From a bacterium (lineage in GTDB: Bacteria; UBP15; UBA6099), in assembly GCA_029564595.1 (NCBI GenBank), contig JAKQPS010000035.1, forward strand, positions 1 through 64,000: 64,000 nt of DNA, given 5' to 3'. The position numbers and the translations under genes were made by a program. Below the pieces are notes generated by a model, which worked only from the letters and a program-made list of their open reading frames with translations, had not been told where the DNA came from and made no database searches. Shown piece by piece: positions 2,469-62,676 of the stretch (positions within the stretch are counted from its first letter, which is position 1; the number at the start of each line of letters is the position of its first letter).

Positions 2469-2921
2469 TTACTGGAGCATTTCTCTAACGGAACGCTGGG
2501 TAAATTTGTTGATAATAAGTTTTGACGCGAAATCTTCGGCTATGGAATCGGCAAATTGCAGACGATCCATATAGAGCCGAAATGTTTTGATTCTTCCTTC
2601 TTCAAATATCAGTGATCTCATCTGCCGCGATTTGATTTTCTTGCCTGTGTGGATGACGCCGTTAAGAACGTATTCTTCGAATAATACATTGCCGTCGATA
2701 ATTGTCTTTGTGCTTTCAAATCCAATCTTGTCCATGTGGCTGTATGTCCACTTAAACCATTTTTTCACGCCGTCTTTGCCCGCGAGCTTTAGCCCGAACA
2801 GCTCAATTTCACATTTGTCGTCGAAGCAGGCAAGAAGGCGTTCAAGGTTTTTTTCCTGAACGGCGATACGCACGTCTTCCGCTGTTTTCAGATTAATCTC
2901 ATTCTGTGACTCGTCGCGCAT
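2469..2921 (-). CDS. NTF2/SnoaL-like protein (150 aa)
   Basis: A small alpha+beta protein with the order typical of SnoaL-like or ketosteroid-isomerase-like folds: N-terminal helix (AEDVRIAVQEKNLERLLACF), the DDKCEIELFGLKLAGKDGVKKW segment, then strands carrying FEEYVLNGVIHTGKKI and MRSLIFEEGRIKTFRLYMD. Members act as small-molecule isomerases or cyclases, or as plain ligand-binding domains. The sequence does not say which, and there is no signal peptide, so the product is cytoplasmic. The start at 2921 follows GGGAG. It is the first gene of a two-gene unit with the secreted protein at 1664-2455. Confidence 0.7.
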   Translation of the reverse strand: MRDESQNEINLKTAEDVRIAVQEKNLERLLACFDDKCEIELFGLKLAGKDGVKKWFKWTYSHMDKIGFESTKTIIDGNVLFEEYVLNGVIHTGKKIKSRQMRSLIFEEGRIKTFRLYMDRLQFADSIAEDFASKLIINKFTQRSVREMLQ

Positions 2922-3004
2922 TGTTTTTACTCCCGAATAATTAGATGAATAGCGATTGTCGCTTTTGGGCGCTCTTCTATTCTTGCTGCTGACGGCATGG
3001 CTTT

Positions 3005-3035
3005 ACTATAGCATATAGGGTGTTCTTGTCGTCAA
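3005..3035 (-). promoter_or_regulatory. Promoter for the NTF2-like/secreted protein unit
   Basis: On the minus strand TATAGT (3005-3010) carries an extended -10 TGC directly upstream and a TTGACG 19 bases further up (3030-3035). Expected start of transcription is near 2998, giving a leader of about 77 bases. Confidence 0.5.
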
Positions 3036-3057
3036 TAAAGGGATAGTAAAAGGCTAT

Positions 3058-3330
3058 GAACCACGAAGGCACGAAGACACGAAGGGAGGCTTATTGGGGG
3101 GGGGTGGATTCTGGCGAAAAGCGGGTACAGGCATCGCTGGGTTGCGCGCTGCCAGTCCCCGTTTTTCGGGCGACCCCTGGGGTACGATGAATGTTTTTGC
3201 TGGTTGGGGTGAATAAAATGGGTTCCCGCTTTCGCGGGAATGACGGCTGGAAATAAAGAGGAATGACGGCTGGAAATGAAAAAAGAATGACAGCAGGAAT
3301 GAAAAAAGAATGACGTCGGCGGGGGGGGGT
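3058..3330. repeat. Intergenic repeat block left of the RiPP operon
   Basis: Three motifs sit together. At 3058-3087 is the phrase AACCACGAAGGCACGAAG and its continuation, a Lys/Arg-codon-like repeat that I have seen between genes of many bacteria. At 3223-3240 is the palindrome TTCCCGC-tttc-GCGGGAA, a common dispersed inverted repeat. At 3239-3319 are four imperfect tandem copies of a unit beginning AATGACGGCTGG, starting at 3239, 3262, 3286 and 3309 (period 23-24). Long open frames on the minus strand across this block are artefacts of repeat and high G+C. Confidence 0.7.
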
Positions 3331-3334
3331 GAAT

Positions 3335-3363
3335 TTGACAGGGGTTTCGGGGTGGAATAGATT
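3335..3363 (+). promoter_or_regulatory. Near-consensus sigma70 promoter of the RiPP operon
   Basis: TTGACA (3335-3340), a 17-base spacer and TAGATT (3358-3363). Transcription should start near 3370, which is downstream of the first in-frame ATG at 3367 and therefore favours the start codon at 3391 for the first gene. Confidence 0.75.
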
Positions 3364-3390
3364 GTTATGAGTAGAACAGGACGGTTTCTG

Positions 3391-4317
3391 ATGGGGATAT
3401 ATGTTTTTGAGATGGGTGGCTTGAGAGTGGCTGCGACGGCGGTGTCTGAGGGCATGCCTGAGAGGTTTGGGTGTCTTCTGGAGGGGAGCGTTTGCGGGGG
3501 GGCGGTGTCTGACGGCGGGAATGTCATGCCGGACAAGGACGGGTTGCGGGCAGTGCGGGACGAATCGGTCGGCGCGCCGCCGGCGGATTTTTTTCTTGAT
3601 ATCGTGTTCGAGGACGCGGTTGAGGGGGGCGGATTCCGCGCGCGGGCAACGGGCGCGGGGGTTTTCGAGTTCGGGATGAAGGGAGTATGGTGTCGGATGG
3701 ACCTTGAGCGCGGGCGCGGGGAGTTGAGGGCGGTTCGGGATGAAAGCGCGGTGGAGTATTCGATGAAGCTTGTGTTCGGGGCGCTGCTGGCGAGGCGCGG
3801 CGGGGCGATAATGCACGCGGCGGCGGTCGCGAGGGACGGAAAGGGGCGGATTTTCTGCGGGCCGCCGGGGGCGGGCAAAACAACGGTGGCGGGAATTGCG
3901 TCCGGCGGGCGCGGAGCGGGAGCAGCGCGGACGTTGAATGACGAGTTGGCTGCGGCGGTTGCGGGTGGGGAAAATGGAGCGGCGCGGGTTTATGCGTTGC
4001 TGGAATGGGCTGATGGCGGAACGATGAGGGACGCCGGGGCGGCGGGGCCGGGCGGGGTTCCGCTGGCGGCGGTCTATGTGTTGTCTCACGCGGGGGCGGG
4101 AGAGGCGACGACGTTCGAGCGTCTGAGCGGGGCGGAGGCGGCGGGGGCGGTTTTCTCCAACATGAGGTTCGCGCTTCCGGCGCCGGAGGCGATTCGGGCG
4201 GCGATGGAGGCGGCGGACGTTTTGAGGCGGTCGGTCGCGGTGTCGCGGATGAGGTTTTCGCTGGCGGACGCGCCGAGATTCTGGGAGGTTATCGATGAGT
4301 TCGAGCGAAAAGGATAA
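3391..4317 (+). CDS. HPr kinase-like ATPase of the RiPP cluster (308 aa)
   Basis: A protein of the HprK-like kinase fold as often found beside PqqD and peptide-modifying enzymes. The C-terminal half has the sequence GGAIMHAAAVARDGKGRIFCG leading into a Walker A (GPPGAGKTT, about residues 157-165). A Walker-B-like LNDE follows about 20 residues later, rather close. The N-terminal half has no recognised motif. It probably binds ATP in the cytoplasm; whether it phosphorylates the peptide or another protein is unknown. I chose ATG 3391 because the promoter implies that transcription begins after the ATG at 3367. It overlaps the PqqD gene by 23 bases. Codons are unusually G-rich even for this genome. 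Confidence 0.7.
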   Translation: MGIYVFEMGGLRVAATAVSEGMPERFGCLLEGSVCGGAVSDGGNVMPDKDGLRAVRDESVGAPPADFFLDIVFEDAVEGGGFRARATGAGVFEFGMKGVWCRMDLERGRGELRAVRDESAVEYSMKLVFGALLARRGGAIMHAAAVARDGKGRIFCGPPGAGKTTVAGIASGGRGAGAARTLNDELAAAVAGGENGAARVYALLEWADGGTMRDAGAAGPGGVPLAAVYVLSHAGAGEATTFERLSGAEAAGAVFSNMRFALPAPEAIRAAMEAADVLRRSVAVSRMRFSLADAPRFWEVIDEFERKG

Positions 4318-4603
4318 GGTTTACGCGAGAGCGCCGGAATGCGCGTTCAGGGAAATCGACGGGGAGGCGTTCATAGTGTCGCCGAAGACGGGGGAGGCGC
4401 ATCTGCTGAACCCGACGGGGACGTTTATATGGTCGAAGCTGGACGGAGAGGCGACGGCGGGACGGATAGCCGACGCTCTGGCCGCAGAGTTCGATGTGGG
4501 CGCGCAGGCCGCGCTGGCGGACGTGTCGGAATTTCTTGACGAGCTTGCGGGGCTGGAGCTTGTGGCGGAGATAGGCAAAGAATCAAATGAAGGCTCTTAT
4601 TAG
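4295..4603 (+). CDS. PqqD-family peptide chaperone / RiPP recognition element (102 aa)
   Basis: Matches the PqqD fold in length and sequence: VYARAPECAFREIDGEAFIVS, then the LLNPTGTFIWSKLDGEATAGRIADAL signature (about residues 38-63) and a C-terminal helix. PqqD-like domains bind the leader of a ribosomal precursor peptide and hand it to the modifying radical SAM enzyme. Its place between the HprK-like gene (23-base overlap) and a radical SAM/SPASM gene fits that role. The start ATG 4295 lies inside the previous gene. Confidence 0.9.
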   Translation: MSSSEKDKVYARAPECAFREIDGEAFIVSPKTGEAHLLNPTGTFIWSKLDGEATAGRIADALAAEFDVGAQAALADVSEFLDELAGLELVAEIGKESNEGSY

Positions 4604-4620
4604 CTATTGGGGTGAGGACA

Positions 4621-4651
4621 CCATGCATAAAGGAAAAAGCTTTATGCATGG
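4621..4651. promoter_or_regulatory. Perfect 11-bp inverted repeat inside the RiPP operon
   Basis: CCATGCATAAA (4621-4631) and TTTATGCATGG (4641-4651) are exact reverse complements around a 9-base spacer. The repeat lies in the 136-base gap between the PqqD-like and radical SAM genes. It could be an RNA hairpin that tunes expression of the downstream genes, or an operator. A 14-codon ORF with a GAGG ribosome site begins inside it (4623-4667). Confidence 0.6.
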
Positions 4652-4739
4652 CACACTTGATTGGTAGTGAGTTTAATCAACTAACCCGGATTTTACGAGA
4701 AAAAGACGGGCTGATGACAAGAATGGAAAAGGAAGTCTG

Positions 4740-5786
4740 ATGGGCGGAAGCGAAGAGAGAGGCGGAGGGGCGCTGGAGGCGGCGTTTGAGAAGGCCAAGC
4801 GGGCGGGGCTGACGCTGTCCGTCCATTTCGAGTTGACGCGGCGGTGCAACCTGAGATGCAGGCATTGCTACGTGTGCGGGGCGGACGATGAGGCGAGGCG
4901 CGAGATGAGCGCGTCGCAGGTCTTCAGGGCGCTGGACGTGTTGGCGGATTCGGGGACGTTGTTTGTGACGTTCACGGGAGGCGAGCCGCTATTGAGGGGG
5001 GATTTTTTCGAGATAGCGGAGCGGGCGGTGGAAAAGAATTTCGCGGTGAGGATTTTCACTAACGGGACGCTGATAGACGAGGCGGCGGCGGACAGGATAG
5101 CGGCGCTGAATCCGCTGGAAGTGGGCATCAGCGTGTACGGGGCGACCGCCGAGACGCACGATGGGATAACGGGGGCGGCGGGGTCGTTCGAGAAGAGCGT
5201 CGCGGCGGCGCGGGCGCTGCTGGCGCGGGGTGTGACGGTGACGGTGAAGTCGGTGATAATGAAGCCGAATTTCGGGGAGTACGGGGCGCTGATCGACATG
5301 GCGCTGGAGATGGGGGCGAAGTATGTGTTTGACGCGACGGTGTTTCCGAGGGACGACGGAGGGCGGGAGCCACTGGAGTTGAGGCTGGACGATGATATGC
5401 TGTGGGAGACGTTGAGGGATGATAGGTTGACGGGGAGGAAGCCGGGCAAGCCTGCGCCGGATGTGTGCCGGGGGCCGGTGTGCGACTTGTCCACCGCGAC
5501 GGCGGGGTTGTCGCCGGAAGGCGATATCTTTCCGTGCCTGCAACTGCGCAAACGGATGGGGAACATCAAAGAAATAGACAGCCTCTCCGAGGTCAGGGAC
5601 GCATGGATGGATATAATTTCGGGTTTGACGCGGGAAACGGAAAACGAGAAGCGCTATAATTGCGAGTATAAGAAGTATTGCGCGAGGTGTCCGGGGCTGG
5701 CGGAGTTGGAAGACGGGAGCGCGACGGGGCCGTCTCAGTGGGCATGCCGCGCTGCAAGACTGAGAGCAAAGGCGAAAATGGAATGA
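4740..5786 (+). CDS. Radical SAM/SPASM peptide maturase (348 aa)
   Basis: Radical SAM core with C36-x3-C40-x2-C43 (RCNLRCRHCYVCG) and the GGEPLL motif (about residues 80-85). The C-terminus has a SPASM-type set of cysteines near 243, 248, 266, 308, 314, 317 and 336, including the G-x4-C element (GDIFPC), which bind auxiliary iron-sulphur clusters. Enzymes of this class (for example PqqE, AlbA, MftC) form C-C or thioether bonds in precursor peptides. With a PqqD-like gene upstream and a Cys-bearing 56-residue ORF that overlaps its stop by ATGA, peptide maturation is the obvious role; the bond made is unknown. The start follows AAGGAAG. Confidence 0.92.
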   Translation: MGGSEERGGGALEAAFEKAKRAGLTLSVHFELTRRCNLRCRHCYVCGADDEARREMSASQVFRALDVLADSGTLFVTFTGGEPLLRGDFFEIAERAVEKNFAVRIFTNGTLIDEAAADRIAALNPLEVGISVYGATAETHDGITGAAGSFEKSVAAARALLARGVTVTVKSVIMKPNFGEYGALIDMALEMGAKYVFDATVFPRDDGGREPLELRLDDDMLWETLRDDRLTGRKPGKPAPDVCRGPVCDLSTATAGLSPEGDIFPCLQLRKRMGNIKEIDSLSEVRDAWMDIISGLTRETENEKRYNCEYKKYCARCPGLAELEDGSATGPSQWACRAARLRAKAKME

Positions 5787-5953
5787 TTGAAGAGCCGGAA
5801 GTGAAAAACGAATCGGTCGGCGCGGCGAAACGGCCTTATTCGAAACCCCGGATAAAATCGAGCAGCATTAAGGATACGTTCCTCGCCTGCGGCAAATGCG
5901 GCTCCGGCCCTGTGGAAATGTTCGTGTGCGTGGTATTCCCCGAACTGAGCTAG
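5783..5953 (+). CDS. Candidate RiPP precursor peptide (56 aa)
   Basis: The ATG overlaps the stop of the radical SAM gene (ATGA), so translation is coupled. Residues 1-30 are a polar leader with KRPYSKPRIK (16-25), a Tyr-x-Lys-Pro pattern that recurs in leaders of PqqD-dependent peptides. From about residue 31 the sequence changes to a Cys/Gly/hydrophobic core with cysteines at 36, 39 and 49 (ACGKCGSGP, then MFVCVVFPELS at the end). The core has no obvious Gly-Gly cleavage site, and no protease or exporter gene is adjacent. I read it as a substrate for Cys-based radical chemistry, sactipeptide-like or a related linkage; this is inference from context. Confidence 0.8.
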   Translation: MIEEPEVKNESVGAAKRPYSKPRIKSSSIKDTFLACGKCGSGPVEMFVCVVFPELS

Positions 5954-5975
5954 CTTCCACACAAAGATAAAAGAT

Positions 5976-6134
5976 GTTTGCGGGGCAACCATTTTTTGCA
6001 AAAATTGGTTTCCCCGCGCCCCTTCCAAAAAAACTCTTGGCCGCCGATTTTGATGAACTTCGTTCAACTCAAAATCGGCTTATTTAATAGCTAAAAAACA
6101 GAAAGATGCAATTTTCGCCTTCGGCGATTGGGAA
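5976..6134. repeat. Direct repeat E, copy 1
   Basis: About 160 bases beginning with GTTTGCGGGGCAACC and ending near TTCGCCTTCGGCGATTGGG. It is nearly identical to 6215-6375. Inside are short palindromes (GCAAAAAATGG-type hairpin; CCGATTTTG...CAAAATCGG) and CGCCTTCGGCG. The pair separates the RiPP operon from the next gene. Confidence 0.85.
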
Positions 6135-6214
6135 AAAGCCCTTTTGAAAGGGGGCGCTTCCCAAGCTTTTCAATTTTTGGCGATGGCGAGAGAGGTTGGG
6201 GAAAATCGGGTGGT

Positions 6215-6375
6215 TGTTTTTGCGGGGCAACCATTTTTTGCAAAAATTGGTTTCCCCGCGCCCCTTCCAAAAAAAACTCTTGGCCGCCGATTTTGTTGAA
6301 CTTCGTTCAACTCAAAATCGGTTTTTTTAATAGATAAAAAACTGAAAGATGCGATTTTCGCCTTCGGCGATTGGG
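6215..6375. repeat. Direct repeat E, copy 2
   Basis: Second copy of the unit at 5976-6134, offset by 242-243 bases, with only a few substitutions and one or two single-base indels. The 80 bases between the copies are unique. Apart from these repeats, 5954-6522 shows no supported gene. Confidence 0.85.
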
Positions 6376-6522
6376 GAATAGTCCTATGAAAAGGGTTGTT
6401 TCTCCAAGCCTCTTTTCAAATTCTGGCGTCGGGATAGTCGCTGGCACGCAATAGGCAGTCGCCGGCATTCGAAAACGCATAGAATATTTTTACTTCATTT
6501 ATCGCCCGCGCGTGCGGCGCTG

Positions 6523-6551
6523 TTGAAATGAGCGGGCATATCAAATATACT
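6523..6551 (+). promoter_or_regulatory. Promoter for the zinc-ribbon protein / RNase HI unit
   Basis: TTGAAA (6523-6528), 17-base spacer, TATACT (6546-6551). The transcript would start near 6558 with a 60-base leader that is very G+C-rich and can fold (GGGC-ggaaa-GCCC, CCGGCGC-GCGCCGG) before the ribosome site GGAGG at 6603-6607. Confidence 0.65.
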
Positions 6552-6617
6552 ATTACCCTGTGGACGGGCGGAAAGCCCGCGCCCCGGCGCGCGCCGGAGG
6601 CCGGAGGTTAAGTTTTG

Positions 6618-7352
6618 ATGACCGAGATGACCAGCAAGTTAGACGAGCTTTTCAAGCTCCAGCAGATAGACAACCAGATTCTTCAGAATATGCGGCGAAT
6701 CCGCCAGATAGACAAAGTCGAGCATCCTGTTCAGAAGAAACACAGGGAGCTTAACGCCAAACTCGAGGCTTTCGACAAAGAACAAATCCCGTTCAAAGCG
6801 AAAGCCAAGGAGCTTCAGGATCAGATAGCGGTCTATAAGGATAAAAAGAACAACGTTGACATGAAGCTCGACGATTCCCAGACGGACCCCAAAGAGCTTC
6901 AATTCATATTCAAGGAAAGAGAGCAGTACACAAAGCTGATAAAGACAGCCGAAGACGAGATAGTGAAGCTGATGCTTGAGCTTGGCAATGTCGATCTCAA
7001 GAAGCGCGGGTTCGTCGAGCAGCTCAACGATATAGAAGAAGAATTCAAGAAAGTTACCGCAGAGCGCGCCGCCGACAAGGAGCGCTTTGCCGCAGAGGTT
7101 GAGAAGCTCCGCGAGGAGCGCAAGGCCTTTAAGAACTTCTCCGACAAGACCCTGCTGTCGCACTATCAGGAACTTCAGAAGACGCACGACGGGATGGCGA
7201 TAGCGACTATTGAGGACACCGACGACAAAGATATCAAGGTGTGCACCGGCTGCAATGTCGAGGTCAGCCTGAGGACGCTGCAAGCGCTCGAACGCGCGGA
7301 CGGGCTGGTTTACTGCCAGCGCTGCGGGCGCATCCTGTACAGACAGGGCTGA
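6618..7352 (+). CDS. Coiled-coil protein with C4 zinc ribbon (DUF164/CdsZ-like, 244 aa)
   Basis: Residues 1-190 are an almost continuous charged coiled coil (for example KAKELQDQIAVYKDKKNNV and ADKERFAAEVEKLREERKAF). The C-terminus is a zinc ribbon with two CxxC pairs (VCTGCNVEV and YCQRCGRIL). This is the architecture of the widespread bacterial C4-type zinc-ribbon family (DUF164); CdsZ of Chlamydia is a characterised DNA-binding member. It is usually encoded beside RNase H or GTP cyclohydrolase genes, and here RNase HI follows after 26 bases. ATG 6618 lies 10 bases after GGAGG; a TTG at 6615 is an equally spaced alternative. Confidence 0.85.
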   Translation: MTEMTSKLDELFKLQQIDNQILQNMRRIRQIDKVEHPVQKKHRELNAKLEAFDKEQIPFKAKAKELQDQIAVYKDKKNNVDMKLDDSQTDPKELQFIFKEREQYTKLIKTAEDEIVKLMLELGNVDLKKRGFVEQLNDIEEEFKKVTAERAADKERFAAEVEKLREERKAFKNFSDKTLLSHYQELQKTHDGMAIATIEDTDDKDIKVCTGCNVEVSLRTLQALERADGLVYCQRCGRILYRQG

Positions 7353-44617: not shown

Positions 44618-47600
44618 TTATCTTGCATCGAACAGAGGATCGCAGAGAAGCGTGTTTGCGGACACCGGGACAGATTTGCCATAGTTCTTTTTAAAAACAT
44701 CGAGGTCCTGCATGGAAACTTTTCCGTCCATATTGAAGTCTGCCGCGGGGTGATACAGAGCGTCGCCCGCGAAAGAGCCGAACCTGTGTCTTAAAGATTT
44801 AAGACTTGCCATTCCGACTGTGGGGCTGCAAGCGGGATTGCCGATCTCGCCGCCGCCGCCGGAATTTCCGACGGGGATTGAGGTTGGCGACACAGACGTC
44901 GCGGTTGTCGCGCTGAGACTTCCTGCGGCCTTCAGCGTCACCATGCATTCGCCGGGCGCTGAATCCGCCGCGCACCCCATCACCGCCGACATTGCCGGCT
45001 CCCACGTCCCCGCCGGAAACACCGCCCGGATGATGTACTGTTTCGACGCGTCAACACATTCGGCGCATGTTCCCGTTCTCATTTTGAAGAACGGTATATT
45101 CCCTATCGCATTCGTCTGCATGGATTTGACGACCGTTTTCGTCGCGGCATCTACCACTTCGACTCTTACACCGGGCAGAGGCGTTTCTACTTTTCCGAAC
45201 CCCGTCGCCGCCCCCGCCGCCGCGAAACATCCCGGCTCTCCCGCCGCGCATGACTCTATCTCATACTTCGTGAAAGGTTTGCCGAACTCGATCGACACCG
45301 GACACACATCAGGGTCAATCGCGCACGGGTCTTGAGTTTCCAACCTGACCGGCGAGGGGGAAACGGCTATCTGCGATTCGCGGCATAAGACCCCGGTGTA
45401 GCTCACGCCGAGGTAGTAGTTGCCGGAATAATGAACATCAAGGTTGTTGAATGAAAGAGGTTCTTGTCCGAGTTGTCTGTCATGCGCGCCGGGCATGGGG
45501 CTTGCCGTCAGCCTGCCGTAAGGCGTCAAGCAGGATGCGGGGTTCGAACTGGTGCACAGATACACATGATATCCCGCGCCCATTCCGTCGTCATCCGCCG
45601 AGTTCGTCCAGCCCGCGCGCGCTCCGTAGTAAGTCGGCGGTATTTCAAACCCTTCCACCGCAACGGGAGGCAGGCATTTTTCGCCCGGTCCGTCGCAGTA
45701 ACCACAGTTAGGCGCATTCTGCGCGCCGTAAACTGCGCTTTGGTTGCCCGACGGATCCTTTGCCGTCACACAGTACACATACTGCGCATCAGACGTCACG
45801 GATTCATCCATATAATTCAGAACCGTCAGAGGCGAAGAGTTGATTTTTGAGAATTTTGCCGCCGAGTTGCATGTCGCCAAGTCTCCTTCGCATCTATGGA
45901 CGTCGTAAGTGACGGGGTTCTTATCCGACACCGCGCTCCAAGCCGGAGAACAAGAGAACACATCGAATTCCAAAGGAGTATTCATTCGCGGTTTTTCAGG
46001 CGGCGTGATGTCTTGAGGAACACATACGACCGGCCCGGAAGTCGCGGGCGCGGGCGTCCACCGGGAAAATTTGTCGAACATGTTGTAAGCGTAAACTCTG
46101 TAACAATAGGCGACGCCGTTTGTGAGATGAGCGCCGGAGTCCGTATAGCTTGTCTCACCTCCGGCGGACACCGTTCTGATGGGAATTGCCCCGTTGGGAT
46201 TCGGCAGTTGGGCGCAGCCGCCATTGATCGCAGGCGCTCGCATTATCTTGTATCCCACAAGTTCACCCGGCGTCGGGTAGTCGCAGTAATCGAAAGTGTC
46301 GTATTCGTCCGCGCAAACCTTGTCCCATTCTATTTTACAGGACTGGCCTTCCGGTTCAGCGGTCGCCTTCTGATTTTCAGGCCAGCGGGGCGCTCCATCC
46401 GGATCCCCACAAGGAACCAGCACGCATTTGCGAAACAGATACGTCGTGTCAAACAAACTGCAATTTGCCGTCTGGCTTTCGGGGCATGTTCCGGCAGCCT
46501 TGCAATTATCGCAAGCCTCCACCCAGAAACACCATTCATTTTCTTCACTGCCGAAAGCGGTGTCGTTGGAATACGACATCGGATTCGGAACCGACGGCTG
46601 GGCGATTAGAGAGAAATTCAATTTCGAATAGCCGACAGGGCGGCCCTGAGCATCCGCGCCACATGATGAAAGCGTTGCTTTTTGACAATAATAGATATTG
46701 TATCCGCCGCCTCCGGCCAGATCAGACTCGGAGCCGGGCTCCCAGTTGACATTTATGCCGTAACTGCCGACCTGACAAACGACTGAAGGCTCTATCTTCG
46801 CCGGAGGTTTTAGGTCTTGAGTCGCGCAGGTGGCGGATGTCCATCCTGATTTGTTGTCGCCGACATCGATAGCCCTGACTTCATAACTGTATGTAGTAGC
46901 GTTGATGAGGTTCGGATCGTCAAACGAGTTGGGAAGAATGGTGGTCGTGTTCAACTGAACTCCGCCTCTTCTGATGTCGAAACCGTAAAGAGACGGGTCT
47001 GAGGTCTTGTCGGCCGTCCATGAGCAGTAGCATTTTTTTTCATGCCCTATCGGGGTGGAGCAGGTGAACTCGGCGGGAGCAACCGGGGCCACCCAGTCTT
47101 CGGGCGCGCAGACTGCGGAAGTCCATTGCGAGGGCGGAGCTTCTTGACATATGGGATGCGATGAGGAGTTCACTGCAGAAAAATAAAAATATCTCGGATG
47201 TCCGTTGAGTTCAGAGTCCGGGATGTTAAATGTTTTCGAATACGCAACTGAGCCGTTTTCAGGAAAGTTATCAGGGCCGGACAAAGACTCCACAAGGGTC
47301 GCCGTGTTCCTGTCGTTGACGGTGTTGTAATAGACGTTGTAATAGCTTACAAAAGATTTGTCAGGCGAAGGAAAAATATCAAAAACGCAGTCGTTGCCGG
47401 CCGCCGGAATGGTCGTCCCCTGTCTTATGCAGGTCGAGGTTGACCCCGCGCCGCCCGTCTTGCAGATGGAGGATTTCACAATAGGCGGAGCCGGCCTGCC
47501 GCACGGGCTACTCGTTACGCTTCTGTTGTCTTTGATCATTTCAAGGCTTGGGGTGGTGTCTGTCCTGAAATACGGGACGCCCCCCGTTAACTGAAGCTTG

Positions 47601-48841
47601 CTTGTCGCAAACAACATCCGCGCGCTTTTGCTCGTCGAGCCGAGCAACGTCTTTCCGTTGGGCAGGGCGTTCTTGGCTATGAATCTCAGTTCGCTGTTGG
47701 TGTATCCTATTTTCAACTTAGTCTCTGTGTCGGTTCCCACGAAAATCTTGCAAGCCAGCGGGTCCGGCGTGTTCGGGTTGGTGACGCAGTCGCCGTTCCA
47801 GAGAACTTTTGCGAGGTTCGGGTCTATAGCTTCCATTTTCGGAGAGAAAGACAGCGTGAACGCATTCGGATAATGCGTGTCCGCAATATTCATATCATCG
47901 ATGTCGGGATTGAAGAAATGCATGCTATACATTTCAATCGCTCCCGAACCCGATAGAGGCGGCTGTCCGCCAAGCTTTATCTTGGCGCAAACCACATCGT
48001 CCGTCGGCAGTTCTCCGTATCCCTTTCCGGCGCTGGCGGAAAATCCATGTGTATCAACTATCTGCCAACCTGAAACGACGGACTGAACTCCATTTTCGTC
48101 AGGCTCTCCACAGGTGTCTCCCGTGGGGTCGTTGACTGTGTAAGCGGTTCCGCAAGTCGGAGCGCCCGGTTGGTTTACTGAACAGCGCTCATAACTTGAC
48201 ATCATTGTACAGTTGTTCGTCGCCGCTGTTTCGTAAAAGTTGTTCCATGAAGTCACGCTTGAGCAGGACACATTGTCTAGGCTGGGAAGTTGTGATGTGA
48301 CGTTGCCTCTGCTGTCCGCCGCCACGATGTAATATGTGATGATATCTCCGGGATCTGTCCCTGCTAGATTAATTTCTCCTTTGAACTTGCCGGAAGCTGA
48401 ATCATAACTCATCGTTACAGGCGGCCCGGTATTAGCTACCTCGTTCACATAGTAGTAGAGCTTGGGATTGCCTTGTTTCAAACAGTCCCCTGTTCCGTTC
48501 GGGTTGGGTATGCATGGGGGATTGGGAGAGATGGCCGGGTCGGGCCTGCTCCACCATTCGGATATCTCGCAGTCCGTCCGGTCGCAGTTGTCGCCGCAGC
48601 AGACCTGTATCTGTTCCCGCCCTTCAATAGTCGCGTACACCGTCATTATGGCGCCCGGAAGCGCCGATGAATTGACTATATCTTTTATGACAGGCGTTCG
48701 TGGCATCGAAGGTATGCCTAACTCGAATATCAAGTCGTCAGCAAACGCCGCGCGCGCGCCGCACAACATCATTGCCGCGGCAGCTATAACGGCAAATGCT
48801 ACGAATCGCGCTTTCCGGCTTGTTTTCGATTGTCTATTCAT
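44618..48841 (-). CDS. Large secreted modular protein with dockerin-like C-terminus (1407 aa)
   Basis: Signal peptide (residues 1-34, AVIAAAAMMLCGARAAFA). The body is Cys- and Pro-rich and made of repeated fibronectin-III-like units (for example SYEVRAIDVGDNKSGW, AYCYRVYAYNMFDKFSRW and VYCVTAKDPSGNQSAVYG, roughly residues 600-1100). A Gly-rich linker precedes a single dockerin-like EF-hand near 1345-1385, with HRFGSFAGDALYHPAADFN then MDGKVSMQDLDVFKKNYGK. EF-hand Asp/Asn positions for calcium are intact. It is probably an exported surface or scaffold protein; no cohesin gene is in the window. The start follows GAGGA. Confidence 0.75.
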   Translation of the reverse strand: MNRQSKTSRKARFVAFAVIAAAAMMLCGARAAFADDLIFELGIPSMPRTPVIKDIVNSSALPGAIMTVYATIEGREQIQVCCGDNCDRTDCEISEWWSRPDPAISPNPPCIPNPNGTGDCLKQGNPKLYYYVNEVANTGPPVTMSYDSASGKFKGEINLAGTDPGDIITYYIVAADSRGNVTSQLPSLDNVSCSSVTSWNNFYETAATNNCTMMSSYERCSVNQPGAPTCGTAYTVNDPTGDTCGEPDENGVQSVVSGWQIVDTHGFSASAGKGYGELPTDDVVCAKIKLGGQPPLSGSGAIEMYSMHFFNPDIDDMNIADTHYPNAFTLSFSPKMEAIDPNLAKVLWNGDCVTNPNTPDPLACKIFVGTDTETKLKIGYTNSELRFIAKNALPNGKTLLGSTSKSARMLFATSKLQLTGGVPYFRTDTTPSLEMIKDNRSVTSSPCGRPAPPIVKSSICKTGGAGSTSTCIRQGTTIPAAGNDCVFDIFPSPDKSFVSYYNVYYNTVNDRNTATLVESLSGPDNFPENGSVAYSKTFNIPDSELNGHPRYFYFSAVNSSSHPICQEAPPSQWTSAVCAPEDWVAPVAPAEFTCSTPIGHEKKCYCSWTADKTSDPSLYGFDIRRGGVQLNTTTILPNSFDDPNLINATTYSYEVRAIDVGDNKSGWTSATCATQDLKPPAKIEPSVVCQVGSYGINVNWEPGSESDLAGGGGYNIYYCQKATLSSCGADAQGRPVGYSKLNFSLIAQPSVPNPMSYSNDTAFGSEENEWCFWVEACDNCKAAGTCPESQTANCSLFDTTYLFRKCVLVPCGDPDGAPRWPENQKATAEPEGQSCKIEWDKVCADEYDTFDYCDYPTPGELVGYKIMRAPAINGGCAQLPNPNGAIPIRTVSAGGETSYTDSGAHLTNGVAYCYRVYAYNMFDKFSRWTPAPATSGPVVCVPQDITPPEKPRMNTPLEFDVFSCSPAWSAVSDKNPVTYDVHRCEGDLATCNSAAKFSKINSSPLTVLNYMDESVTSDAQYVYCVTAKDPSGNQSAVYGAQNAPNCGYCDGPGEKCLPPVAVEGFEIPPTYYGARAGWTNSADDDGMGAGYHVYLCTSSNPASCLTPYGRLTASPMPGAHDRQLGQEPLSFNNLDVHYSGNYYLGVSYTGVLCRESQIAVSPSPVRLETQDPCAIDPDVCPVSIEFGKPFTKYEIESCAAGEPGCFAAAGAATGFGKVETPLPGVRVEVVDAATKTVVKSMQTNAIGNIPFFKMRTGTCAECVDASKQYIIRAVFPAGTWEPAMSAVMGCAADSAPGECMVTLKAAGSLSATTATSVSPTSIPVGNSGGGGEIGNPACSPTVGMASLKSLRHRFGSFAGDALYHPAADFNMDGKVSMQDLDVFKKNYGKSVPVSANTLLCDPLFDAR

Positions 48842-49762: not shown

Positions 49763-52636
49763 ATGAAGAAACTGAAGCTGTGGAGAACCCCGGAATCCAG
49801 AAACAAGGTCGTGGGCGTCGCGCTGGGGCTGTTGGTGGGAGTGGTCGCCGGGCTGTTGCCGCACCCTAAGGCGGCAGACCTGCCGGGCGTTGGGGTGGCC
49901 CATGAACTGTTGAAGAGTTTCGAGCACAAGGCGTACGACCAGAGATTCCGCACGAGAGGCCCGCTGCCGGAAGAAAAAGTGTCGCGGGACATCGTGTTGC
50001 TGGACATAGACGACGACAGCTACGAGTGGCGCACATGGCCGTTCGACAGGACGATATGGAGCGAGATAGTGACGGCGCTGGGAGCCGAGGGCGCGGGCGC
50101 GAGGATGGTTCTGTTCGACGTGTTTTTCTTCGACCGTTCAGGTCCGGCGTTGAACCCCGGCGTGGCCGACACGTTTTCGAAGAAATTCGAGACTCTGGCC
50201 TCGACCGTTCCTGAGGAAACAGAGTGGGACCAGAACGTAAAAATGAAACTGTACGAGATTTCGGACAGGCTGACTGGGCCGGTCGAGGAAAAAGACATCA
50301 AAGAGATGGTGGCGGAGCTTGACGCGATCACGGGCGACCCGCAGTTCGCAAGGTTCTCCGAGGCGTACAACGACGCGGCGCTGTACCTGTTTGAGAACTC
50401 TACGCTGGACGCGCTGGCTCCGGACAGGGACGCGATTCTGGCGGACTCGATACAAAGGGCGGGCAACGTGTTGCTCGGACAACTCGCCAACAAGGAAGAG
50501 GAATCCGCATACAAACGGGACGACATATTGTATGACCCGGACGCGAGGGCGATGTTCCTGAAGTTCATCGGCATGACCGACAGGACGCAGACGGACAATC
50601 AGGCCGAGGTTGAATTGAACAAGGCGCTGCGCAACCTGAGGCCGGGCGATTTCGAGTGGCTGCTGGAAAAAAGCGGCGAGAAGCAGTCCGGCGCGCGCAA
50701 GCCGATACCTTTCAGCGACAAGGAAAAAGAGCTGGTCATGGCTGAACTGGCAAAGGTGCGCGCCCAGACGGATTACGGAATGGGCGTGAATGAAAGATTT
50801 AAAGCGAAGATAAGGCCCGACAACCCGGTTCCGGCGAAGAGCGTTTTGGACGAGTACATCGACGTGGTTCAGTTCCAGACGGTTATGCCGATGTTCGGGG
50901 ACGGCTCGGCGGGAGTGGGATACGTTCTGCCCGAACTGCAGAAGGACGGCGTCATACGCATGATGTCTCCCGCGCTGAACTTTGACGACACGCTTTATTT
51001 CCATATATCCTTCCTCGCGGCGATGCATTATCTGGGCGTTCAGAACGATGACTTGGATTTCTATCCGGAAAAAATCGTCATAAGGAACGCTACGTTTCCC
51101 GGAAGCGAAAAGAAGACGACTATAACGATGCCGCTGGATGAAAAAGGCACGCTGCTTGTGAACTGGGCGGGGGCGTTCCTGCAGCCGAACACATTCATAC
51201 ACCGCAGCGTTAGAAAGATTTACGAAGACGCGGTTAAATACAACATCCTAAAGAAGAACGAGGCGGGCGCGCCGCTGGCGCAGCACGAAGCGGCAATTCT
51301 GGAAAGCCTCGACGCCGAGGAAGCCAAACGAGTGACCGAGGAGTTGGAGTTTTTTAGGGAAAAGGTGATTCTGATAGGTTTGACGGCGGCTGGCACGCAC
51401 GATCTGAACCCGGTTCCGTTCAATCCGAGGGACCCCCTCGTAGGCATGCACGCCAACGCGGTGAACACGATAATCAAAAGCCTGTTCATCAAAAGGGCCG
51501 CGTTCTGGGAGGTCTTTGCGGCGGTGGTGGCGATGTCCGCGCTGGTGGGTTTTGTCGGCGGCGCGGCGAAACAAGCCGTCGGCGGCGCGGTGGCGGCGGG
51601 AACAATCGTCGCGTACGCCGCGGCAACCCAATATCTGTTCGGCTCCGCGATGATATGGGCTCCCTTCGTGTCGGTGGTCGCGGCGATCTCGCTCTCCTAC
51701 CTGCTGGTGGTGGTCTACAGGTACATGACAGAGGGCAAGGAAGCGAAAAAGATGAAGTCGATGTTCTCCACATACGTGAATCCGGAGGTCGTGGAGACGC
51801 TGATACATCACCCGGAAAAGCTGAGGCTTGGCGGAGAGAAGATGGACCTGACGGCGATGTTCGCGATGGCGTACGGGCCGGGGCTTTCGGAAGCCGAGTC
51901 GCCGGAGGAGCTTGTCGACAGGCTGAACGAATATTTTACGGCGATGACGGCGAAGATATTTGACAATCAGGGAATGTTGGACAAGTACGAGGGCGCGATA
52001 ATTATGGCTGTGTACGGCGCGCCCATTCACTACGAGGACAACGCGGTTAAAGCCTGCTACGCGGCGCTGGACATGGTGAAGGCCAACGACGAGCTTCTCA
52101 AGAAATGGGAGCAGGAGGGAAAGAAGCCGATACGCACTATGGTCGGGCTGAATTCCGGCCTGATGATAGCCGGGAACATGGGGTCGGAGTCGAGGTTCAA
52201 CTACACGATAATGGGCGACGCGGTCAACCTCTCGGCCCGTCTTCTGGGAGCCAACAAGCAATACGGCTCGAGCCTGATGATAAGCGAGTTTACGCTGGAA
52301 AAAGCGAAGGATTTCGTGATAGTGAGGATGTTGGACAAGATGCGGGTGGTCGGGAAACTGGAGCCTGTTAAAGTATACGAGTTGCTGGGCAGGACGGACG
52401 AAGGGCTGCCGGAGGATGTGGCGGAGTGCGCGAAACGTTTCGCGGAGGCGTACGAACTGTATCTGGAAATGAAGTGGGACGAGGCGAAGGCCGGGTTCCA
52501 GAGGGCGATGGACGCCCGGCCCGGAGACGGCCCAAGCAAGGTGTACATGGCCCGTTGCGACGATTACAAGGCCACCCCGCCGCCGGTCGGCGATGACGGC
52601 AAGTGGGACGGCGTGTACGTGATGACCAAGAAATAG
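49763..52636 (+). CDS. CHASE2 class III cyclase-like protein A; lacks metal-binding Asp (957 aa)
   Basis: One N-terminal helix (VVGVALGLLVGVVAGLL), a large periplasmic CHASE2 sensor domain (about 45-570), three membrane helices (about 580-655), a class III cyclase domain (about 690-860) and a TPR-like tail. The catalytic set is half lost. The first metal Asp position is Met702 (FAMAYGPG in place of FSDIxGF), the second Ala745 (DKYEGAII in place of DKxxGDAx). The substrate Lys741 and Thr815 and the transition-state Asn822 and Arg826 (YTIMGDAVNLSARL) are intact. Alone it should be inactive; see the next gene, which starts 44 bases on. Confidence 0.9.
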   Translation: MKKLKLWRTPESRNKVVGVALGLLVGVVAGLLPHPKAADLPGVGVAHELLKSFEHKAYDQRFRTRGPLPEEKVSRDIVLLDIDDDSYEWRTWPFDRTIWSEIVTALGAEGAGARMVLFDVFFFDRSGPALNPGVADTFSKKFETLASTVPEETEWDQNVKMKLYEISDRLTGPVEEKDIKEMVAELDAITGDPQFARFSEAYNDAALYLFENSTLDALAPDRDAILADSIQRAGNVLLGQLANKEEESAYKRDDILYDPDARAMFLKFIGMTDRTQTDNQAEVELNKALRNLRPGDFEWLLEKSGEKQSGARKPIPFSDKEKELVMAELAKVRAQTDYGMGVNERFKAKIRPDNPVPAKSVLDEYIDVVQFQTVMPMFGDGSAGVGYVLPELQKDGVIRMMSPALNFDDTLYFHISFLAAMHYLGVQNDDLDFYPEKIVIRNATFPGSEKKTTITMPLDEKGTLLVNWAGAFLQPNTFIHRSVRKIYEDAVKYNILKKNEAGAPLAQHEAAILESLDAEEAKRVTEELEFFREKVILIGLTAAGTHDLNPVPFNPRDPLVGMHANAVNTIIKSLFIKRAAFWEVFAAVVAMSALVGFVGGAAKQAVGGAVAAGTIVAYAAATQYLFGSAMIWAPFVSVVAAISLSYLLVVVYRYMTEGKEAKKMKSMFSTYVNPEVVETLIHHPEKLRLGGEKMDLTAMFAMAYGPGLSEAESPEELVDRLNEYFTAMTAKIFDNQGMLDKYEGAIIMAVYGAPIHYEDNAVKACYAALDMVKANDELLKKWEQEGKKPIRTMVGLNSGLMIAGNMGSESRFNYTIMGDAVNLSARLLGANKQYGSSLMISEFTLEKAKDFVIVRMLDKMRVVGKLEPVKVYELLGRTDEGLPEDVAECAKRFAEAYELYLEMKWDEAKAGFQRAMDARPGDGPSKVYMARCDDYKATPPPVGDDGKWDGVYVMTKK

Positions 52637-52680
52637 CCGCGGCCTGCGCCGCATAATGCCGGAATCACTGGAGAACCTCG

Positions 52681-55600
52681 ATGAAACTAAAACTTCCGCA
52701 CAAGGCTGAAGACAGGAACAAGATAATCGGCCCGTTCATAGGGCTTGCGATGTCCGCTCTATTCATCGCGCTGTTCGCGTCCGGAGCTTTAGATACGATA
52801 GGGAACCTCGACCTAGACGCGAAGTTCAAGGTGCGGCAGAGATTCGAGAAGCCGCCCGTGAACAGAGACATCCACAATGTGCTGATCGACGACTCGACTC
52901 TCGATTGGGAGGGCGCGTACCCTGACGACCCGATATATTACGTGGACGTGATAAACGGGCTTGGGCTGGACAAACACGGAGCGCTCGCCACTCTGTTCGC
53001 TATCGACTACTCGCGCCCCTTCGGGCGCAAGGTGGACATCGACGTCCGGGAAGGGTTCTCAGGGGCCACTGAGCAGATATCTCAGATATTGTTCTACAAC
53101 CTCGAATTGAAGTTCGGCATGATGGAGAAGATAGGGACGTACAGAGATTTTCTCGACGACCCCGAAGCTCCGTCGTACGCTGCGGATCTGGCTCCCAGAT
53201 TCGAGGAGATTGTTTTCGACGAGGAGCTCGGGAGCGTGTCCGGCCTGATGGAACAGGTGGCCGGGTTCGCCGGGCACAACATGCATCTCAACGAGCTTGC
53301 GCCCGACCGGGAGAAGGCGGTTGGCCGCGCGGCGGCCTCCGCTCGCAATGTCTATTTCGCGTTCAGCGCGAAGAACTATCTGCCGACCCCACACGAGCCG
53401 AAAGACCTGAAACTGGACAAGAAAACGCGCGCCGTCTTCGAGCGCGTGCTATCCTACCCCACCCGCAACAAGCCGGACAACCCTGCCGAAGCGCTCGTGT
53501 TCGACGCCTACCAGAATCTTGATTTGCGCGACTTCGACTTCCTTCTCGAAGGCGAAGGCGAGCCTTTCGAGGGCGCTGTCGCAAAAAGGATTGCCGAAGA
53601 CAGAAAGAGGAAGTCAGAAGAGCTTTATAACTTCCACAAGCAGAACTCGCCGCCGATGAGCGCGAAGGTTCTGAAGACCGACGCCTACGCGAGGAGCCTG
53701 TTTGAGAAAGCGATGAAGTCCGACCCGCCGCCGGCCCCCCCTTCCATGGAAGCCCTCGCGCTCGAAGCGTACCAGTCTCTGTCGGCGAGCGATCTGGACT
53801 ACCTGATGGGCAAAGAGGGGACGCCTTTCGAAGACGCGATAAACGACAGGCTTCTGAAGGACAAAGTGCTGCGCATGGCCGGCGCCGAGCAGAAGGAGGG
53901 AGAAACCGAGGCGGCTGAAAAAGAATACTACGTCTTCGATATTCCCCCCGGACTTGAAAACGCGTTCCCGCGGCTCAACAAGGTCAATCCCGTGCAGCCG
54001 GAAATCGGGATGAACACCGCCGGTCAAGGCCCGCAGAGGGCGGAGTTCAGCAGAAGAGACGGCACGCTGCGGATGATCGCGCCCGTGTATGTTTATGAAA
54101 ACAAACTGTATCCCCACGTGGATTTTCTCATCGCTCTGAAATATCTGAAAGTAAAACCGGAAGATGTGTTGCTGAAAAGAAATAAAATCGTCCTCAAGAA
54201 CGCGACGCTTCCCGGAGCTAAAAGCGGGACCGAGGACATATCCATCCCGCTGCTTCCCGGCGGCAAGATGCTGGTCAACTGGGCGGGCATCTGGGCGGAC
54301 ACCACGCTGTTTGACACGGACAGCTTCCTGAATTTCTACTCCACCCTCGGACGGCACAGCATCCTTGAGCGGGGAAGAGCGAACGCGAAGATTCCGCCGG
54401 AAGAGCAGACCGACCCGCTGCAAGAGGACGAGGCGAAGATTTACGAGAGCATCGTCAAGACCGGGGAAGCGGCGACTCTGGACGAAAAGATAAAGGCTCT
54501 CAAGGACAAGATAATAATCATCGGGCTGACGGCGGAAGGCACTGCGGACATGAACCCGACGCCGCTCGAACCGAGATATAAAATTCTCGGACTGCACGCA
54601 AACGCGATAAACACCATAGTTGAAAGGCTGTTCATTGACAAAGCGCCGTTCGTCTGGGTGGCGCTGATATTCGTGGTTCTGGGCGCCGGGCTGGGATTCT
54701 CCGGCGGCGCGGTCAGGCACACAAACCCGTTCTTGGTGGCCGTCATAAACTTCTCAATCATGCTGTTCGTGGCGGCTGCTTACTTCGCGGCGGCTAACTA
54801 TCTTTTTATTGCCAAGCGCATAGAAATCCCCGTGTTCGCCGCTATCGGGCTGATAGCGGCGACGTTCCTAAGCGTCTTCATCTACCGCTTCCTCACCGAA
54901 GAGAAGGAAAAGAAGAAGATGAAAGGCATGTTCTCGACTTACGTGAACCCGCAGGTCGTCGATTCGCTTCTGGCGGACCCGGACAAGCTGAAACTCGGCG
55001 GCGAGAGGACTCGAGCGTCAGTGTTCTTCTCCGACGTAGCAGGGTTCACCTCAATATCCGAAGCTCTGACGCCCGAAGAGCTGGTTGAGTTGCTGAACGA
55101 ATACCTGACGGAGATGACGGCGATACTCATGCAGTACGGCGGCACGCTGGACAAGTATATCGGCGACGCGATCGTGGGCATCTTCGGCGCTCCCATCCCC
55201 TTCCCAGAGCACGCCAAGAACGTCTGCTACAACGCGCTGGACATGCAGGCGAAGATAGCCGAGATGCGGGAGGTGTGGAAGACTCAGGGCAAACATCTTC
55301 TGCAGGTGCGCTGCGGGGCGAACACGGGCGAGATGATAGCGGGCAACATGGGTTCCACAAACCGCTTCTGCTACACCGTCATCGGCCCGGAGGTGGACTT
55401 CGGCGAGCACATGGAATCGTCCGGAAAGCTCTACTCCACCCAGACCACGATAAGCGAGTTCACGCGGGCCGAGGCGGACGAGTTCATAATCGTCCGGTTC
55501 CTCGACATACAGATCAGTTCGGCGTATAAAAATCCGGTGAAGATATACGAACTGCTCGCCAAGAAGTCCGACGGCCTGCCGGACATCAAGCTCGAATGCT

Positions 55601-55974
55601 GCGACCTGCACGAGGACAGCGTGCTGTTCTATTTCCAGAGGCGGTTCGACGAGGCGGCGGAAAAGGCCGCCCGGATATTCGACATATTCCCGGAGAAACC
55701 CGTTGGAGACGCGACATCGGCGCTGACGGCCGCCGCAAAACAGGCCGTCGATCTCTACAGACAGGGCAAATATAAGGAATCGGCAAAGCTGATGAGCAAA
55801 AGCATCAACTCGAAGTCGTATCCGCCGGAGCGGCTCGAAGAGGAGACGGTCAAGTTCCTCCACCCGACGTGCATGCAGTTCGTGCGGATAGCCGAGGCGA
55901 AGGCCGACCCGCCGGACGCCTCGTTCGACGCGATTCTGGCTGAAGCCACTCACAGGAAAGACCTGAAGTTCTAG
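52681..55974 (+). CDS. CHASE2 class III cyclase-like protein B; lacks transition-state Asn/Arg (1097 aa)
   Basis: Same architecture as protein A: N-terminal helix, large CHASE2 domain (about 45-650), three membrane helices (about 660-745), cyclase domain (about 775-950) and a TPR-like tail of some 140 residues. Both metal-binding aspartates are present, Asp785 in FFSDVAGFT and Asp829 in DKYIGDAI, with Lys825 and Thr899. The block that normally reads GDxVNLAAR is GPEVDFGEH, so the catalytic Asn is Asp906 and the Arg is His910. Losses are exactly complementary to protein A. Lys plus Thr as base-reading pair suggests ATP, hence cAMP, as in other adenylyl cyclases. Confidence 0.9.
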   Translation: MKLKLPHKAEDRNKIIGPFIGLAMSALFIALFASGALDTIGNLDLDAKFKVRQRFEKPPVNRDIHNVLIDDSTLDWEGAYPDDPIYYVDVINGLGLDKHGALATLFAIDYSRPFGRKVDIDVREGFSGATEQISQILFYNLELKFGMMEKIGTYRDFLDDPEAPSYAADLAPRFEEIVFDEELGSVSGLMEQVAGFAGHNMHLNELAPDREKAVGRAAASARNVYFAFSAKNYLPTPHEPKDLKLDKKTRAVFERVLSYPTRNKPDNPAEALVFDAYQNLDLRDFDFLLEGEGEPFEGAVAKRIAEDRKRKSEELYNFHKQNSPPMSAKVLKTDAYARSLFEKAMKSDPPPAPPSMEALALEAYQSLSASDLDYLMGKEGTPFEDAINDRLLKDKVLRMAGAEQKEGETEAAEKEYYVFDIPPGLENAFPRLNKVNPVQPEIGMNTAGQGPQRAEFSRRDGTLRMIAPVYVYENKLYPHVDFLIALKYLKVKPEDVLLKRNKIVLKNATLPGAKSGTEDISIPLLPGGKMLVNWAGIWADTTLFDTDSFLNFYSTLGRHSILERGRANAKIPPEEQTDPLQEDEAKIYESIVKTGEAATLDEKIKALKDKIIIIGLTAEGTADMNPTPLEPRYKILGLHANAINTIVERLFIDKAPFVWVALIFVVLGAGLGFSGGAVRHTNPFLVAVINFSIMLFVAAAYFAAANYLFIAKRIEIPVFAAIGLIAATFLSVFIYRFLTEEKEKKKMKGMFSTYVNPQVVDSLLADPDKLKLGGERTRASVFFSDVAGFTSISEALTPEELVELLNEYLTEMTAILMQYGGTLDKYIGDAIVGIFGAPIPFPEHAKNVCYNALDMQAKIAEMREVWKTQGKHLLQVRCGANTGEMIAGNMGSTNRFCYTVIGPEVDFGEHMESSGKLYSTQTTISEFTRAEADEFIIVRFLDIQISSAYKNPVKIYELLAKKSDGLPDIKLECCDLHEDSVLFYFQRRFDEAAEKAARIFDIFPEKPVGDATSALTAAAKQAVDLYRQGKYKESAKLMSKSINSKSYPPERLEEETVKFLHPTCMQFVRIAEAKADPPDASFDAILAEATHRKDLKF

Positions 55975-61710: not shown

Positions 61711-62676
61711 ATGACTCTGGACATTTCGGAGCTGAAGGGCATTGAGCTGTTCGCGCAGTTCAAGGACGACGAGCTTGCCCGGTTCGCTCCCGTCATTGAA
61801 AAAATAGAGCTGTCTTCCGGAAGGAATCTATTCGTCGAGGGAGACCCCGGCGATTCTCTGTGCATAATAGTCAGCGGCGCGATCCGGGTATACAAGACCA
61901 TAGATTCGATGGCGGGAGAAGAAAAATCGCTGGCCCTGCTCACCGCGGGCGCATATCTCGGAGAGATGACGCTTCTGGAAGGTTCTCCCCGCTCGGCGTC
62001 GGCCCGCGCGGAGTTCGACTCCGTTATTTTTAAAATCACGCGCGAGAACTTCATCCGCCTGTTGCGCGAATACCCACAGGCGGCAATCAGGTTTTTCGTC
62101 TCTTTCATGAACGTCCTGTCCGAGCGGCTGCGAAGAACCAACGAGGAGCTTGTCGTGCTGTACGAGATAGGCAAAGTGGTGGGAGCCGCCCCGCCGATCG
62201 ACCATCTCCTTGAAGGGGTTCTCCGACCGCTGGTCAACACCGTGAAAGTGGAAATGGGCGCGGTCTTCGTTCTGAATGAAATCACCGGAAAACTTGAGTG
62301 CAAACACGCCGTCGGACAAGGCTCTTCCGACATGCTCAATGTAAAAATCCGAGAAGGCGAAGGAGTCGTCGGAAAGGCCCTCGCCGAGCAGGAGACGCTT
62401 TGCGTCAGGAATTTCGACAATGCCCCGGAGTGCGCCGGGTTGCCCAGACTCGGCTTCGAGCGGCCCGACATGCTGATAGCGCCTCTGGCGCGGGCCGGAC
62501 GCCCTTTCGGCGCCCTGCTCCTCGCCCAGCGTCTCGACGGCAAGGGCTTCGACAACGCCAACATCAACCTCATCAACGGCGTCGCCTCTCAGGCCGCCGC
62601 CGCCATCGAGGCTGCTCTCTTCCAGCAGGATACCGCCGCAAGGGAAAACTTCGATAGAAAATCAATTATGTTTTAG
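61711..62676 (+). CDS. Cyclic-nucleotide-binding and GAF domain protein (321 aa)
   Basis: Residues 10-125 are a CRP-like cNMP-binding domain. The phosphate-binding cassette, AYLGEMTLLEGSPRSASARA (81-100), keeps Glu85 and Arg94, so it should bind cAMP or cGMP. A helix (FFVSFMNVLSERLRRTNEELVVLYEIGKVVGA) leads to a GAF domain (about 165-310). There is no DNA-binding or enzymatic output domain, so it probably works through protein contacts. It is coupled to pilT (4-base gap) and is the natural receptor candidate for the cyclase pair encoded about 5.7 kb upstream. Confidence 0.88.
   Translation: MTLDISELKGIELFAQFKDDELARFAPVIEKIELSSGRNLFVEGDPGDSLCIIVSGAIRVYKTIDSMAGEEKSLALLTAGAYLGEMTLLEGSPRSASARAEFDSVIFKITRENFIRLLREYPQAAIRFFVSFMNVLSERLRRTNEELVVLYEIGKVVGAAPPIDHLLEGVLRPLVNTVKVEMGAVFVLNEITGKLECKHAVGQGSSDMLNVKIREGEGVVGKALAEQETLCVRNFDNAPECAGLPRLGFERPDMLIAPLARAGRPFGALLLAQRLDGKGFDNANINLINGVASQAAAAIEAALFQQDTAARENFDRKSIMF

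Follow-up and report, generated by a model that had tools for sequence, protein, structure and literature searches.

The window, a stretch of 64,000 nucleotides, carries two neighbouring genes on the + strand, each coding for a protein with an N-terminal CHASE2 domain and a C-terminal cyclase domain by Pfam, and with transmembrane segments recognised by eye. Protein A (957 aa, 49763..52636, +) is a CHASE2 receptor with a class III cyclase domain free of metal ligands, a C2-like subunit, while protein B (1097 aa, 52681..55974, +), whose gene starts 44 nt downstream of gene A by ORF positions, has a cyclase domain free of the catalytic Asn and Arg, a C1-like subunit. The CHASE2 domain (PF05226) spans residues 48-593 in A (49904..51541, +; E-value 7.8e-34) and, with insertions, residues 27-667 in B (52759..54681, +; E-value 4.5e-18), both matches passing the curated Pfam threshold. 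The cyclase domains (PF00211) lie at 51752..52408 (+) in A (E-value 1.8e-11; PDB matches 2w01, 3r5g, and 1wc0) and at 55012..55575 (+) in B (E-value 1.5e-19; PDB matches 3r5g and 2w01). Their scores of 44.4 and 70.8 bits respectively exceed the curated cut-off of 21.9, which makes both proteins members of the class III nucleotidyl cyclase family, and in architecture both fit the CHASE2-type cyclases, among whose intact members they also group in trees.

Elsewhere in the window there is a 1407-aa Cys-rich, secreted-looking protein (44618-48841, -) with a C-terminal end resembling a dockerin-type repeat by eye. Approximately 6 kb downstream of A-B lies a gene for a protein with cyclic nucleotide-binding and GAF domains (61711-62676, +), a possible cAMP effector.

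Neither A nor B is of the homodimeric type, in which each chain holds all six catalytic residues. In A, M702 (51866..51868, +) and A745 (51995..51997, +) replace the first and second metal-binding Asp, while the substrate-specifying Lys (K741, 51983..51985, +), the base-binding Thr (T815, 52205..52207, +), and the catalytic Asn and Arg (N822, 52226..52228, +; R826, 52238..52240, +) are retained. In B, both metal-binding Asp are present (D785, 55033..55035, +; D829, 55165..55167, +), as are the Lys and the base-binding Thr of what would be the dead site (K825, 55153..55155, +; T899, 55375..55377, +), with D906 (55396..55398, +) replacing the catalytic Asn and H910 (55408..55410, +) the catalytic Arg. 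These positions were read from the translations and an alignment, which for the metal positions of both proteins and for D906 and H910 included solved structures. M702 and A745 stand opposite the metal Asp of 3r5g (CyaB) and 2w01, and D906 and H910 opposite their Asn and Arg. Every residue named for A and for B in the preliminary description was thus correct, and the comparison with class III structures which it had proposed confirmed the positions of the losses; judged from the aligned sequences, there is no doubt about the register. The alignment to solved cyclases places no acidic residue close to M702. Glu743 of A was considered as a substitute metal ligand and rejected, as it is the ordinary x of the DKYxGD motif and is found in intact CHASE2 cyclases too. 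AlphaFold models of the single catalytic domains of A and B, built on a 6-sequence alignment, reached a pLDDT of 37-38, too low to be informative.

Conservation in the UBP15 order and other cyclases of the genome

Close relatives of the source genome are metagenome-assembled genomes of the candidate phylum UBP15, for example ADurb.Bin236 and UBA6099. In all seven UBP15-order genomes compared, A adjoins B with an identical split of residues, and this conservation indicates that the split is not due to chance. The preliminary description had suggested surveying genomes for constant pairing and had named regular absence of the partner as evidence against its proposal; no such absence was seen in the seven. 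At the positions of the first Asp, Lys, second Asp, Thr, Asn, and Arg, A has M/L, K, A/S/H, T, N, and R and B has D, K, D, T, D/E, and H across these genomes, the retained half-site positions of A being invariant and its lost positions variable. Genes A and B have dN/dS values of 0.08-0.10 and 0.055-0.06 within the genus, and their catalytic domains lower ones still, 0.00-0.045 and 0.021-0.033 respectively, as low as in an intact cyclase (0.05-0.08). The catalytic domains of both are under strong purifying selection and neither gene is decaying.

These data bear on the idea that A, B, or both are pseudo-enzymes with receptor or scaffold roles and no joint active site. The loss of essential residues from both proteins is what such an idea would expect, but the selection on the catalytic domains is not, and a pure scaffold would not preserve exactly the other half-site in 7/7 genomes; we regard it as very improbable.

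A whole-genome PF00211 search of the source genome found 12 cyclase domains. All four lone cyclase genes are intact, and the remaining eight genes are grouped as four pairs of neighbours, each complementary by residue alignment. Under random labelling (4 C1-like, 4 C2-like, 4 intact), with relatedness ignored, the chance of this arrangement is 16/34650. Three of the pairs are GAF-type (contigs C95, C108, and C161), with a GAF-containing C1-like gene first, retaining the metal Asp and with the Asn changed, and a C2-like gene second, in which the first Asp is changed to Glu and Asn/Arg are retained. Between the partner genes sit one or two genes for multi-pass membrane proteins that match no Pfam family, and the genes in these regions overlap by a few bases. 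This layout of the GAF-type pairs (loci L014, L017, L018, and relatives), with membrane-protein genes enclosed, is conserved across the UBP15 order. GAF-type pairs are present in 6/7 of the order genomes. In three seemingly lone members (L054, L069, and L070) the intervening membrane-protein genes reach the contig end, which points to pairs split by the assembly.

The four intact class III cyclases of the source genome could in principle serve as partners, with the degenerate proteins acting as dominant-negative or modulating subunits. However, these cyclases are encoded at other sites in the genome, and their architectures (HAMP, TPR, or others) differ from the CHASE2 layout that A and B have in common; complementarity and co-inheritance are found only between adjacent partners, so that we give this explanation hardly any credence. 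The GAF-type pairs raise a different one, namely that A and B each work as homodimers by a changed mechanism or on another substrate, the lost residues being made up for by others. Some losses in GAF-type pairs are conservative (Asp to Glu; Asn to Asp/Glu with Arg kept), and residual homodimer activity is possible there and in some pairs from outside UBP15 with similar changes. For A and B themselves this is most improbable: M702 and A745 cannot bind metal and have no replacement acid nearby, the lost positions of A-type proteins vary freely while the other half is fixed, and the partners are always adjacent.

Complementary pairs in other lineages

Searches with narrow sequence patterns (Asp to Glu; Asn to Asp/Glu) had suggested that the split is confined to UBP15; outside the order, a search with the C1-type pattern, restricted to Asn to Asp/Glu, gave matches in 24 genomes, none of which was a cyclase. 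This was overturned by inspection of adjacent pairs in genomes with neighbouring cyclase genes, an opportunistic survey in which four unrelated families (f32, f20/f262, f33, and f122) turned out to have complementary pairs. The f32 pairs, in three genomes, are CHASE2-type and combine S/A, K, H, T, N, R with D, K, D, T, T, E at the six positions, and those of f20/f262, in five genomes, are also CHASE2-type. The f33 pairs (L158, L175-L177; four genomes) are TPR-type, and in their metal-bearing C1-like member the substrate Lys is missing too, replaced by Met. In f122 the pairs consist of proteins of approximately 1000 aa, several with HAMP, and are found in many genomes, with dozens of tandem complementary pairs in both gene orders (L160, L161, L178-L204); one genome (G125) has 63 cyclase domains.

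Across all loci retrieved, complementarity holds for 70 of the 73 adjacent same-strand combinations that could be scored; tandem arrays were scored neighbour by neighbour, and three more combinations are cut by contig or frame ends. As the f122 regions were chosen by adjacency and similarity to a C2-like query, this is not an unbiased census. Pair counts refer to genes and genomes and not to independent events, many pairs being closely related. Spacing is below 300 nt in 58 of the 70, and for all combinations spaced more closely than this the median distance is -4 nt. Lone cyclases are intact in 52 of 63 cases over the fetched loci, three of the remainder being the contig-end halves L054, L069, and L070.

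The three combinations out of pattern are L093, L159, and an outer neighbour in L204. L093 (genome G030) was rejected as a further pair, since its CHASE2 pseudo-cyclase has neither half of the site and carries a protein kinase domain. It encodes (2799-7341) a CHASE2 - degenerate cyclase - protein kinase chain, that is, a pseudo-cyclase receptor kinase, and its neighbour is an FHA-GAF cyclase with Glu at the substrate Lys. L159 (G378) was likewise dismissed, being a tandem of Lys-less-class cyclases of approximately 1064 aa which both have Gly for the catalytic Asn. The position of the G030 receptor kinase beside an intact-type cyclase does show the kind of arrangement that pseudo-enzyme roles for A and B would imply; against such roles stands the complementarity of the losses in nearly all scorable combinations.

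The base-binding Lys and Thr/Asp were left out of the criteria by which chains were sorted as C1-like or C2-like. The Lys is present in 68/68 C2-like and 57/70 C1-like chains (Fisher p 1.3e-4, relatedness ignored) and the Thr/Asp in 68/68 and 52/70 respectively (Fisher p 2.2e-6, relatedness ignored). Such fixation in C2-like and drift in C1-like chains is what the C1/C2 arrangement predicts, as only the C2-like chain would supply these residues to the active site.

Origin of the pairs

In the CHASE2 cyclase tree (support given as ultrafast bootstrap/SH-aLRT), A and B of UBP15 are sister clades (100/96), and their nearest outgroup is an intact gene of G030 (90/89). The f32 pair is united at 100/98 with the intact G007 gene outside (100/100), and the f20/f262 pair at 99/88, the intact single genes of family f261 falling outside it (100/100). 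In all three cases the nearest outgroup is thus an intact single-gene relative, those in G007 and G413-G416 being strongly placed and that in G030 more weakly. The tree shows three separate tandem duplications, in UBP15, f32, and f20/f262, and in all three the daughter clades track the genomes. Support for the f33 pair is 99 and for the sister relationship of the f122 C1 and C2 sets 94 (both SH-aLRT only), the two f122 sets having diversified largely in parallel, as cassettes. The GAF-type pairs of UBP15 fall into two clades at other places in the tree. Counting the three CHASE2 duplications together with the f33 and f122 events, the split arose independently at least five times.

For the UBP15 pair, the probable course is tandem duplication of a conventional homodimeric CHASE2 cyclase in the order's ancestor, then reciprocal loss in the copies, a route that other bacterial lineages appear to have taken independently. 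On a broader view, it is likely that homodimeric class III cyclases have in this way given rise to obligate two-gene heterodimers at least five times in bacteria, with dozens of tandem cassettes in one family and a dead site that keeps its base-binding residues in several lineages, where it may be an allosteric nucleotide site.

Proposed mechanism and comparison with known systems

We consider it highly probable that A and B together constitute a membrane-bound class III adenylyl cyclase that is an obligate heterodimer and that arose by tandem duplication and reciprocal loss. B, as the C1-like subunit, would contribute both metal-binding Asp, while A, as the C2-like subunit, would bring the Lys/Thr that recognise adenine and the Asn/Arg of the transition state; of the two sites in an A-B dimer, one would then be a complete ATP site and the other degenerate. 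The preliminary description had proposed such a pairing, and at the level of sequence it is supported by adjacency, invariance, selection, phylogeny, and recurrence elsewhere. From these we infer a physical heterodimer, inactive A-A and B-B combinations, cAMP as the product, and a ligand. Lys and Thr at the base-binding positions go with cAMP as the product in bacterial adenylyl cyclases, which is the basis of the assignment made for A-B. As both CHASE2 sensors would have to come together for cAMP production, output would be limited to the heterodimer. Since B keeps its Lys and Thr, a guess would be that the degenerate site may bind a nucleotide or other ligand allosterically.

Two-receptor coincidence detection becomes testable with such pairs, which are also candidate two-component cyclases for engineering, and the intact single-gene relatives in neighbouring lineages provide a natural replicated experiment on the evolution of obligate heterodimers. 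For annotation, the neighbouring gene should be checked before a degenerate cyclase that appears to be alone is called inactive.

Mammalian transmembrane adenylyl cyclases are membrane-bound enzymes in which C1 gives the metal Asp and C2 gives Lys, Asp, Asn, and Arg. The division of residues in A-B is alike, but C1 and C2 are on one fused chain whereas A-B consists of two genes and two CHASE2 receptors. The bacterial CHASE2-type and CyaB/CyaC cyclases, which include the intact relatives from G007, G030, and G413-G416, have fold family, sequence family, and architecture in common with A and B; they carry all six residues on each chain and are understood as homodimers (PMC9552081), whereas A and B split these residues. 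Bacterial class III adenylyl cyclases have been reviewed as homodimers, with C1/C2 forms regarded as eukaryotic and derived by duplication and fusion (PMC9552081). The C1/C2-type division in bacteria as separate genes, arisen several independent times, runs against this homodimer-only view. No description of heterodimeric split-residue bacterial class III cyclase pairs was located in the open literature, subscription papers being outside the scope of the search. The novelty claimed earlier for CHASE2 cyclases holds to that extent, but the split is restricted neither to CHASE2 nor to this locus.

The NeoR/RGC rhodopsin guanylyl cyclases of chytrid fungi resemble the predicted A-B enzyme in being obligate heterodimers encoded by separate genes, but they are eukaryotic. 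RGC1 and RGC2 also retain all known catalytic residues, so that the need for a partner there does not come from residue loss (PMC8815786). Closer in layout is the animal soluble guanylate cyclase, in which separate full-length alpha and beta genes divide the metal Asp from the base-binding and Asn/Arg residues, giving one active and one pseudosymmetric site as predicted for A-B, and whose homodimers are inactive because neither subunit has the full set of residues (PMC3591389). As far as sequence can tell, A and B together show this type of division, with the residues distributed so as to give one complete site, and the partners co-occur, being adjacent throughout the order genomes. They are not members of that family. 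Soluble guanylate cyclase is eukaryotic and GTP-specific with a haem/NO sensor, while A-B is bacterial, encoded in tandem, and predicted to be ATP-specific; in place of the H-NOX, PAS, and coiled-coil domains typical of that family, only CHASE2 was detected by Pfam in A and B besides the cyclase domain, and A carries Lys741 and Thr815 instead of the GTP-specific Glu and Cys. By analogy, A-B would work like soluble guanylate cyclase or the mammalian C1/C2 enzymes while belonging to neither, as a type of arrangement that appears recurrent in bacteria.
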